Shown here: positions 22,688 to 28,503 of the stretch, one piece after another
Layout of the letters: each line of letters begins with the position of its first letter
Numbering within the stretch: the first letter of the stretch is position 1
Assembly (NCBI GenBank): GCA_024695235.1
Contig: JAILIP010000009.1
Span: forward strand, 1-55,646
Length of the DNA: 55,646 bases
DNA from: Bacilli bacterium
GTDB lineage: Bacteria; Bacillota_I; Bacilli_A; RFN20; CAG-826
Direction of reading: 5' to 3'
Notes under the pieces: model-generated
The model's input: only the letters and a program-made list of their open reading frames with translations
What the model was told of the DNA's origin: nothing
Databases searched by the model: none
Made by a program: the position numbers and the translations under genes

Positions 22688-22696
22688 TGATATGAT
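22688..22696 (+). promoter_or_regulatory. ffs promoter, extended -10
   Basis: TGATATGAT: TGA extension plus -10 TATGAT (22691-22696). Seven bases on is 22703, exactly the first base of the SRP RNA closing stem. The -35 is weak. Confidence 0.7.
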
Positions 22697-22702
22697 AGAT
22701 AT

Positions 22703-22781
22703 GCCATCGCGATACGTCTACTACGAACCAGGTCAGGACAGGAATGTAGCAGCCTTAAGTAACTAAACTATGTGCGATGGT
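22703..22781 (+). ncRNA. ffs: signal recognition particle RNA (4.5S type)
   Basis: About 79 nt. It contains the SRP domain IV core: GGTCAGG, then ACA-GGAA-TGT hairpin with the GGAA tetraloop, then AGCAGCC. The ends GCCATCGC (22703-22710) and GCGATGGT (22774-22781) pair to close the molecule. There is no Alu domain, so it is the short form, unlike the long scRNA of Bacillus. Binds Ffh to target ribosomes to the membrane. Its closing stem is followed by TTTATTTAT, which might serve as a weak terminator. Confidence 0.93.
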
Positions 22782-22789
22782 TTATTTAT

Positions 22790-23254
22790 ATGAAAAACAT
22801 CGATGAGAAATACATGAGAATCGCCTTAAAAGAAGCAAACAATGCTTTGCTTTTAGATGAAGTTCCTGTTGGAGCAATCATCGTTGATGGCGAGGGAAAG
22901 ATCCTTGCAAAAGGATTCAATAAAAGAGAATCATCTTTTGATCCAACAAGTCATGCTGAGATTAATGCTATTCGCAAAGCCTGCAAGAAAAGAAAAACAT
23001 GGAGGCTCACCGATTGCACGATATATGTCACGATTGAACCTTGTGCAATGTGCGCTGGAACAATTCTTTGGGCCAGAATGAAAAGAGTTGTTTTTGGCGC
23101 GCCTGATTTAAAAGGCGGAGCATTAGGCACAACCTTTAATCTATATTCAGTTGATAATTTAAATCATTATCCAGAAGTTACTCCTTTTGTGTTAAAAGAA
23201 GAATGTGGAAATATTATTTCCAACTACTTTAAAGCTAAAAGAGATAGCAAATAA
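22790..23254 (+). CDS. tadA: tRNA-specific adenosine deaminase
   Basis: Converts wobble A34 to inosine in tRNA-Arg(ACG). 154 residues from ATG 22790. The zinc-deaminase motifs are HAEINAI (His and catalytic Glu) and PCAMCAG (two Cys). The alternative GTG at 22772 would lie inside the SRP RNA and adds six residues with no family counterpart, so I reject it. No Shine-Dalgarno is present. The ATG begins 8 nt after the SRP RNA ends, so it is probably made from the ffs promoter by read-through. tadA next to ffs is usual in Bacillota, though commonly in the reverse order. Confidence 0.95.
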   Translation: MKNIDEKYMRIALKEANNALLLDEVPVGAIIVDGEGKILAKGFNKRESSFDPTSHAEINAIRKACKKRKTWRLTDCTIYVTIEPCAMCAGTILWARMKRVVFGAPDLKGGALGTTFNLYSVDNLNHYPEVTPFVLKEECGNIISNYFKAKRDSK

Positions 23255-26717: not shown

Positions 26718-27259
26718 AAATAGAAGCAAAGTATCGTGAAGGATTAAGACAACTACTTAAAACCACACCACTTGATGAGATAAATGTGGTGATGCTTTCA
26801 AGTTATGTTAAATCGAATAGACAAACCTTCTATTATCACTACCGTGATATTAGTGATGTTGTTGAATCGATTCTTCTTAAAGAAAGAGTTGGTTATGGAG
26901 TATATCCAACTGATTTTGAAAGTATCATTAAACCACTTATTGCGTATATCAACTCAAATCATCAATTTATTACTGCTGTCGCCAATTCCTTTGCAAGCGA
27001 TAAACTTGAAGAATTCTATTATTCGTATTTTTCACAAAGAACAAGCCAATATTTGAAACTATCTCACAAAGCAGAAGCAAACAACGTTGTGATCAATAAT
27101 CAAATTGTTAGATATGTCGCATCATTATTTGCAAAAGAGATGAATTATTGGACTTTAAACAAAAGAAAAGAAAAACCACTATCGCTTCAAAAGCGACTTG
27201 CATTAATGTGGTTTTACTTCATTGATCAATACCCAACAGAAATAAAAGGATTTAAATAA
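26714..27259 (+). CDS. TetR/AcrR-like transcriptional regulator
   Basis: 181 residues. The N-terminal 50 form a TetR-type HTH (INVVMLSSYVKSNRQTFYYH then YRDISDVV), with the YYHY segment matching the family's TFYxHF signature. The C-terminal helical ligand/dimer domain has no recognisable subtype. It overlaps psuG as ATGA and is the last gene of the P-type ATPase-psuG unit, so it is a candidate regulator of that operon (inference). No terminator is evident after it. The next gene has its own leader and promoter. Confidence 0.85.
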   Translation: MKIEAKYREGLRQLLKTTPLDEINVVMLSSYVKSNRQTFYYHYRDISDVVESILLKERVGYGVYPTDFESIIKPLIAYINSNHQFITAVANSFASDKLEEFYYSYFSQRTSQYLKLSHKAEANNVVINNQIVRYVASLFAKEMNYWTLNKRKEKPLSLQKRLALMWFYFIDQYPTEIKGFK

Positions 27260-27270
27260 AAAGAACTATT

Positions 27271-27279
27271 TGATAGAAT
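27271..27279 (+). promoter_or_regulatory. candidate promoter of the structured leader, extended -10
   Basis: TGATAGAAT: TGA extension plus -10 TAGAAT, identical to the dnaN element. Predicted start near 27286, so the RNA would begin with about 15 nt and then the three-way junction. The -35 (TTTAAA) is weak. Confidence 0.5.
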
Positions 27280-27280
27280 G

Positions 27281-27384
27281 GATACAACTAAATAGCTTGT
27301 ATCCCTTAATGACGAGAGCACACGTTGGATTGGCATGCTCGTCAATCTAAAGAGGAATATTTCCTCGTATAAGGGAGATTTTTT
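27281..27384 (+). promoter_or_regulatory. structured 5' leader (riboswitch-like three-way junction) before the M50-like gene
   Basis: Three helices can form at once. P1 pairs TCCCTTA (27302-27308) with TAAGGGA (27370-27376). P2 pairs TGACGAG (27310-27316) with CTCGTCA (27338-27344). P3 is GAGGAA / TTCCTC (27352-27366) with a TAT loop. The 3' strand of P1 is the Shine-Dalgarno AAGGGAG, 7 nt before the ATG, so P1 would hide the ribosome site. A competing perfect helix GATACAA / TTGTATC (27281-27303) uses the first bases of P1. This is what a translational switch looks like. I do not recognise a known riboswitch class. Confidence 0.6.
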
Positions 27385-28503
27385 ATGAAATCAGAAGACG
27401 TAACCAGTTTCATTGTTTACATTCTCATGCTAGGCCTAGCGTTAGCGCTTGGTCTAACCATTGTGAAAGATGCTGTTTCTACCTTACAGATAGGAGGAAT
27501 TAGTTTTCTTGTTATTAGTGTAACCATTATTGTCACGATTATTCTAAATTCTGCAGGACTTGAATTATTCCATGCTTTAGGTGGCAAAGTTGGTGGCTAT
27601 ATGATTGCCTCTTTAAATATACTTGGTTTTTGCTGGTATAAAGATTCAGGAAAAACTAAATTTAAATTCTCTTTTGACTTCGATGGTTTAACTGGTGAAA
27701 CCATTTTAGCTCCAAAGAAAGAAAACGCTAAACCAACTGCTTATGTATGGTTTCCTTTCTTAGCATTCCTTATTGAACTTGTTACAAGCATCGTCCTTTA
27801 TTCAATGGGTTCACTTAAAGGTGCATCTGAAACCATGCAATGGGTCGCGGCCTTAGCAATTGTTGTTGTAACCATCTCATCTATGATGGCGATTTATAAC
27901 TTCATTCCATTGAAGCTTGACTCCACCACTGATGGATATCGTTTAACTTTAATTACAAAACCTGCAAACGTCGCTGCATATAACGAACTTATGAGAATTC
28001 AAGAACTTCAAAGAGAAGGAAAAGAAATCACAAACGTTAAATATTTCGACGAAGTTACTAACTTCACCGCTCAAATCAATTTAATTTCTGTTTACGATCA
28101 TCTATCTAAAAACGAATTCGATAAGGCTCTTAAATTAATTGATAAGATGGTGGATGTTCCAGACAAAATCTCTAAATCAACCTTATATCGCTTAATTGCT
28201 CAAAAACTTTACATCAAGATTCTCACACTTCCATTAAGCGAAGCTGAAAAATACTACGATGCTGAAGTTGGTGATGATATCCGTAGATTTATTTCAAATG
28301 ACTTATCTATGGAATCATTACGTGCATATATTCTCATTGCAGGAATGCTCGATAGATCTCAAGGTGAAGTTCAATTCGCAATGTCTAGAAAAGTTAAAGC
28401 CATGAAACGCACCACAGAAACGCGCGCGAAAATAGAAGAAAAATTATATGATAGCGCGCTCGCGCTTGTGAAACAGGCCCACAAAGATTGGGAATTACAA
28501 TAA
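27385..28503 (+). CDS. degenerate M50-peptidase-like membrane protein with helical tail
   Basis: 372 residues. Membrane segments at about 7-25, 37-57, 118-141 and 152-172. The topology resembles site-2-protease-like M50 proteins, but the zinc motif HExxH reads L59-E-L-F-H63, so the first His is missing. The second M50 motif is retained in form as NFIP...TTDG (N172 to G184). Residues 190-372 are a soluble, helix-rich tail, perhaps TPR-like. I infer an inactive protease-like membrane scaffold; the family call is tentative. It follows the structured leader and has a strong Shine-Dalgarno that the leader can mask. A bidirectional terminator follows. Confidence 0.6.
   Translation: MKSEDVTSFIVYILMLGLALALGLTIVKDAVSTLQIGGISFLVISVTIIVTIILNSAGLELFHALGGKVGGYMIASLNILGFCWYKDSGKTKFKFSFDFDGLTGETILAPKKENAKPTAYVWFPFLAFLIELVTSIVLYSMGSLKGASETMQWVAALAIVVVTISSMMAIYNFIPLKLDSTTDGYRLTLITKPANVAAYNELMRIQELQREGKEITNVKYFDEVTNFTAQINLISVYDHLSKNEFDKALKLIDKMVDVPDKISKSTLYRLIAQKLYIKILTLPLSEAEKYYDAEVGDDIRRFISNDLSMESLRAYILIAGMLDRSQGEVQFAMSRKVKAMKRTTETRAKIEEKLYDSALALVKQAHKDWELQ

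Follow-up and report, generated by a model that had tools for sequence, protein, structure and literature searches.

A candidate cis-regulatory RNA of a membrane-protein gene in uncultured Bacilli, mostly embedded in the coding end of an alcohol dehydrogenase gene

Helices and folding of the leader

The window analysed here is contig JAILIP010000009.1 of assembly GCA_024695235.1 (55,646 nt, forward strand; all features described in it are on the plus strand), and the question it raises is whether the stretch at 27281-27384 acts as a regulatory RNA. The stretch follows directly on a gene for a TetR-type regulator (PF14278; 26714-27259) and runs up to a gene for a 372-aa membrane protein (27385-28503), which is conserved in the family and would be the regulated gene in the model proposed below. 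The original prediction had described it as a three-way junction of helices P1, P2 and P3 that could hide the ribosome site, opposed by a competing helix. All of these helices and the competing repeat were found in the sequence. P1, called P0 here (P1' being used for the stem that encloses the core in relatives), is an anti-Shine-Dalgarno helix of TCCCTTA (27302-27308) and TAAGGGA (27370-27376); the latter strand is, as claimed, the Shine-Dalgarno sequence of the gene starting at 27385, which the helix would sequester. P2 pairs TGACGAG (27310-27316) with CTCGTCA (27338-27344), is extended by two inner pairs read from the sequence and the fold (GC 27318-27319 with GC 27333-27334) and closes on a 13-nt loop, ACACGTTGGATTG (27320-27332), while the P3 hairpin (GAGGAA 27352-27357, TTCCTC 27361-27366) lies between this core and the ribosome site. 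The competing helix GATACAA/TTGTATC proved to be 8 bp long rather than 7 bp, as part of the inverted repeat GGATACAA-N9-TTGTATCC (27280-27287 and 27297-27304).

Although its helices all exist, the three-way junction was not the minimum-energy fold: it came to -21.8 kcal/mol (-23.5 with the two inner pairs) against -31.0 for the optimum. In the latter the Shine-Dalgarno helix is kept and P2 is replaced by a rival helix, S2, which pairs TTGGATTG (27325-27332) with CAATCTAA (27343-27350). The mean pair probability in the window was 0.68 for S2 against 0.23 for P2, that of P0 was 0.63, or 0.96 if the transcript begins at 27286, and that of the competing repeat was 0.80 if it is transcribed. The fold of 27281-27384 had a z-score of -2.93 and that of 27260-27400 one of -2.74, with 2/200 dinucleotide shuffles as good in each case. 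The window by itself could not prove more-than-chance structure; it is the comparison of its sequence with those of relatives, given below, that does. There was no terminator-like site on the plus strand of the leader, which therefore does not have the form of an intrinsic terminator platform.

The prediction that the leader belongs to no known RNA class was borne out, in that neither the window element nor ten related loci reached a gathering score in Rfam 15. Relaxed searches with single elements gave far sub-threshold matches to unrelated families only, and the literature held nothing closer than general riboswitch work. The sole Rfam match of the window was to the small SRP RNA, Bacterial (RF00169), at 22696-22793 (+), with 58.9 bits and an E-value of 1.9e-10.

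The competing repeat can be read in two ways, as an RNA helix that would free the Shine-Dalgarno sequence or, equally well, as a DNA operator. It begins at 27280, the base right after the -10-like box (TAGAAT, 27274-27279) of a promoter-like site, TTTAAA-17-TAGAAT (27251-27279), which could leave its 5' arm out of the transcript. At the usual spacing this arm would fall at about -6 to +2, the TetR-type gene adjoins, and in the leaders of another genus GGAGGTCGACC comes immediately after a -10-like TATAAT, CGACCTCC being found at some distance downstream. That the palindrome at 27280-27304 is an operator of the adjacent regulator, with transcriptional control of this part, is thus a serious possibility, if short of an even chance. 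It leans, however, on a promoter known by consensus match, in a region where the number of such sites is not above chance, although the box recurs as GATAGAAT in a sister leader, L003. It also covers the competing repeat alone and not the covarying core, and so can be held together with the explanation of the core that we favour.

Further inverted repeats were seen near other leaders. Those of one other genus (L144-L149, L152 and L153) contain a perfect 7-bp hairpin, GAGAAAC/GTTTCTC, and, directly after the TATAAT box, an 8-bp repeat, GGAGGTCG...CGACCTCC, both of which overlap possible anti-Shine-Dalgarno stretches; GGTCGACC in the same leaders is itself palindromic and might be an operator. 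L003 has a perfect 11-bp inverted repeat, GATGTCTTAAC/GTTAAGACATC, some 30-110 bases upstream of its motif at 1440, which encloses the GATAGAAT box and ends in possible anti-Shine-Dalgarno bases.

The element within alcohol dehydrogenase genes

The downstream 372-aa protein was found in 22/24 genomes of the genus, and its gene occurs there in loci of three kinds. The leader lies between a TetR-type gene and the membrane-protein gene in the window, L003, L005, L006 and L011; a gene for an iron alcohol dehydrogenase (ADH) stands directly upstream in L004, L007-L010, L012 and L014; and in the third kind a TetR-type gene is directly upstream and the leader is absent. The leaders of the genus share the motif G-N-ACACGTNNGRTTG, in which ACACGTNNGRTTG is the consensus of the 13-nt loop, and the same bases form the last codons of the ADH genes, where GGC ACA CGT TTG ATT GGC encodes Gly-Thr-Arg-Leu-Ile-Gly. 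In the window the relic of such a coding end can still be read from the sequence at 27296-27388, in the frame LVSLNDESTRWIGMLVNLKRNISSYKGDFL* (compare RLTNNGTRLIGQTSIKTLSREDILKMF in L004). Thus the original prediction was right in placing a structured cis element before the membrane-protein gene, but its origin is the 3' end of an ADH gene rather than a 5' leader. An ADH orthologue was not found in the window's genome. Used as a DNA query, the leader matched the window only, and close relatives of the protein were not found in GTDB contigs, viral contigs or plasmids. By eye, a short ORF with a common start or frame across the leaders of the genus was absent. A genome-wide repeat or regulon was considered and rejected, since the other exact matches to the motif within the genus fall in unrelated genes and appear fortuitous.

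With a first covariance model based on 18 ADH-embedded copies, 66/224 genomes of the family gave a hit, one copy each, free leaders in two further genera among them. The second model (R2), built from 66 copies, found the element in 78/279 genomes of the order, again once per genome and always within one family; an even sampling of the class, 395 genomes, added no copy from beyond that family. Scanned with a sequence pattern, GTDB contigs gave matches in uncultured gut and rumen Bacilli, including 'Candidatus Alloenteromonas'. The membrane-protein gene stood directly downstream, in the same orientation, in 71/71 copies examined. The element lay within the 3' coding end of the ADH frame in 56 of these, and the remaining 15, including the window, were free leaders from which the ADH gene had gone. 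In the embedded copies it is found 84-98 nt before the second gene.

Where the element overlaps the ADH gene, the codons appear frozen. When 394 windows of the genus's seven ADH genes were ranked by excess synonymous conservation, the one of seven codons around the motif came first. For the family, in a set of 51 ADH genes whose relatedness means that the counts are not independent events, the Thr of the motif was encoded by ACA in 50/50 cases (0.27 expected from the same genes), the Arg by CGT in 44/48 (background 0.22) and the Ile by ATT in 30/30 (background 0.46). Other genera with the same operon of ADH and membrane protein keep Thr-Arg and encode it differently (ACT AGA, ACG AGA etc.), so the choice of codons is not dictated by the protein sequence alone. 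Loci that have kept the operon and lost the RNA motif (L093, L094, L096, L099, L105-L108, L110, L112 and L113), mostly with Thr-Arg retained and the codons changed, form a natural contrast set for the role of the element. Compared with solved iron ADHs, those of the genus (e.g. L004:1-1191) have small C-terminal insertions exactly at the motif (NGTRLIGQTSIKTL versus NGT--FGQ--FKSL), as though space for the RNA had been created in the protein.

The well-supported branches of a membrane-protein tree cannot be reconciled with fewer than six changes of ADH state. Because presence of the ADH is the commoner state and remnants of it can be recognised in the leaders, we interpret the changes as independent ADH losses in which the element was retained. 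That the element was kept on at least six separate occasions when the ADH gene was lost suggests that it probably controls the membrane-protein gene. It is nevertheless dispensable, as two clades of the genus have kept that gene and lost both the ADH and the element.

The conserved core and its rival helices

As defined by the relatives, the core consists of P2 closed by a conserved 13-nt loop, ACACGUNNGRUUG, the enclosing stem P1' and the rival helix S2, in which the 3' half of the loop pairs with bases just downstream of P2. Covariation among homologues, which the original prediction had proposed as its own test, was strongly positive, for this revised structure: P2 was confirmed, but the loop, the enclosing stem and S2, which had not been listed, belong to the conserved core as well. 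For P1' and P2, the 66 aligned copies had 126 doubly changed cells where shuffles gave 53.3, and the covariation score of 0.349 compares with 0.214 for shuffles (0/500) and no more than 0.123 for slid helices, in an alignment that leans towards P2, the helix used to fit it. S2 was absent from the model used for aligning; its two strands paired in 84.8% of cases among the 66 copies, with 35 doubly changed cells against 15.7 (0/500 shuffles). Single S2 pairs illustrate this, with A-U 26 times and G-C 19 times at one, and U-A 44, C-G 9 and A-U 2 times at another. The position used for P1' is a few bases inward of an earlier placement, which covaried less well and was abandoned.

The free leaders themselves add to this picture. 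In eight of them, from another genus, P1' reaches 10 bp and has single-sided changes only. A hairpin of different sequence occupies the place of P3 in other leaders, and in this group of eight it carries compensatory changes (G-C to A-U, U-A to C-G); since these leaders are non-coding, the structure is kept outside coding sequence too. Paired sites held G-U 139 times against A-C 99 times, an excess that mildly favours the plus strand as the functional one.

P2 and S2 were both nearly complete in 37/66 copies, and the linker between P2 and the S2 strand was 2 nt in 36 of these and 0 nt in one. As so short a linker would not allow the two helices to coexist by ordinary stem geometry, we infer that they are mutually exclusive, and a two-state RNA is the natural reading. 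A plain H-type pseudoknot with full P2 and S2 was set aside as sterically unlikely for the same reason; in structural terms, a partly opened P2 might still stand together with S2. A covarying structure, a constant place upstream of one gene in the same orientation, and helices that appear to exclude each other are all features looked for in riboswitches.

The connection between this core and the ribosome site is less direct. The proposed hiding of the site holds for the window to the extent that P0 forms there, and in other leaders anti-Shine-Dalgarno stretches can be drawn (CCTCC/GGAGG, CTCCA/TGGAG and GCCCTC/GAGGGC). Against shuffled upstream sequence, however, such pairing was significant in no single leader, and leaders were no better than embedded copies, in a test that omitted the 14 nt immediately 5' of the loop, the region of the window's own P0 strand. 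We therefore word the link from core to ribosome site as an inferred one.

Function and origin of the element

The explanation that we favour, and hold to be reasonably probable, is that the element is a new candidate cis-regulatory RNA of the membrane-protein gene, two-state and acting on translation. We are close to certain that it is a structured cis element, lean only slightly towards a two-state switch that acts on translation, and regard a small-molecule riboswitch as possible, with the balance tipped against it. In the model, the RNA would alternate between the P2 form and the S2 form, and a ligand or a protein would recognise the form that presents the P2 loop. The change of state would alter access to the downstream Shine-Dalgarno sequence, in the window by way of P0, and this access would in turn set translation of the membrane protein.

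The element could instead be a binding site for a protein, either the cytosolic domain of the membrane protein in an autoregulatory loop or another RNA-binding protein, so that protein binding rather than a metabolite would set the two-state fold. Autoregulation would fit the single gene target per genome, and recognition by a protein would fit a short hairpin with a conserved single-stranded loop; the ADH itself cannot be the required partner, given that copies of the element survive in its absence. Yet the membrane protein has no recognised RNA-binding domain, a search of the PDB with its predicted structure gave nothing at E <= 0.001, and the covarying rival helix S2 would not be needed for protein binding alone, so that we consider this reading rather unlikely. 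The protein belongs to no Pfam or NCBIfam family. An alignment of it with its homologues (A3) contains an invariant E-x-x-H in a membrane helix and, later, an N/D-x-x-P...D-G-Y motif, and it is possibly an inactive relative of site-2-type (M50) peptidases that lacks the first His. Assignment as an M50 peptidase was not adopted: the resemblance (E-x-x-H, N-x-x-P...LDS..DGY) was seen by eye, and Pfam and the fold search, while giving it no support, do not exclude such a relationship.

We think it improbable that the element is a processing or stability site at which cleavage or protection of the transcript of the ADH and the membrane protein would uncouple the expression of the two genes: a position 84-98 nt before the second gene, inside the upstream coding end, would suit an operon-internal site, but the element was kept in six lineages that had no upstream ADH left to separate, and S2 has no evident role in cleavage.

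The last alternative concerns the window alone, where the stretch might be a decaying ADH relic that forms a three-way junction by chance, the element being active only in relatives. The window copy scored 12 bits against R2 (E = 3), too divergent to be significant, whereas the sister leaders L003 and L011 reached 36 bits, both having been in the building set; the reading frame of the relic is still recognisable; and both the ADH and the element have been lost in two clades of the genus. Against this, the core loop of the window differs at one position from that of L003, despite flanks diverged beyond alignment and proteins that are 65% identical, P2, the inner pairs and S2 can all still form, and the fold of the window beats 198/200 shuffles. 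We hold decay, too, to be improbable. From its synteny before the orthologous gene, its ADH origin, the core motif and the formable P2 and S2, we take the window stretch to be a divergent copy of the element.

As a candidate cis-regulatory RNA, the element resembles orphan riboswitch candidates such as the yjdF motif (PMC4793209; reviewed in PMC7266159) in being a covarying RNA with a conserved loop and mutually exclusive helices upstream of one gene. It differs from them in being mostly embedded in the coding end of the upstream gene, becoming a leader only after the loss of that gene, and in being confined to one family. Like translational riboswitches, the window leader can hide its Shine-Dalgarno sequence, in a 7-bp helix that encloses the core, but unlike theirs this sequestering helix is not conserved beyond chance by the test used and has no evident counterpart where ADH translation extends to the ribosome site. 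The element shares codon freezing and intragenic covarying helices with other structured RNAs that overlap coding sequence, but it outlives the overlapped gene, in at least six lineages. A bolder and rather unlikely form of the explanation would make it a new riboswitch class that was born inside the ADH coding end and serves the next gene of the operon, sensing either a membrane signal or an ADH-reaction metabolite, and that repeated loss of its host gene has set free as a leader.

On the favoured explanation, the element would be a clean case of how a regulatory leader can originate, in which an RNA element that evolved among one gene's codons acts on the following gene and, at least six times, stays behind as a 5' leader after deletion of its host. 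A search confined to intergenic regions would miss elements of this kind. For the uncultured gut and rumen Bacilli that carry it, the element may also provide a handle on the membrane protein and on the operon, of TetR-type regulator, ADH and membrane protein, to which it belongs.
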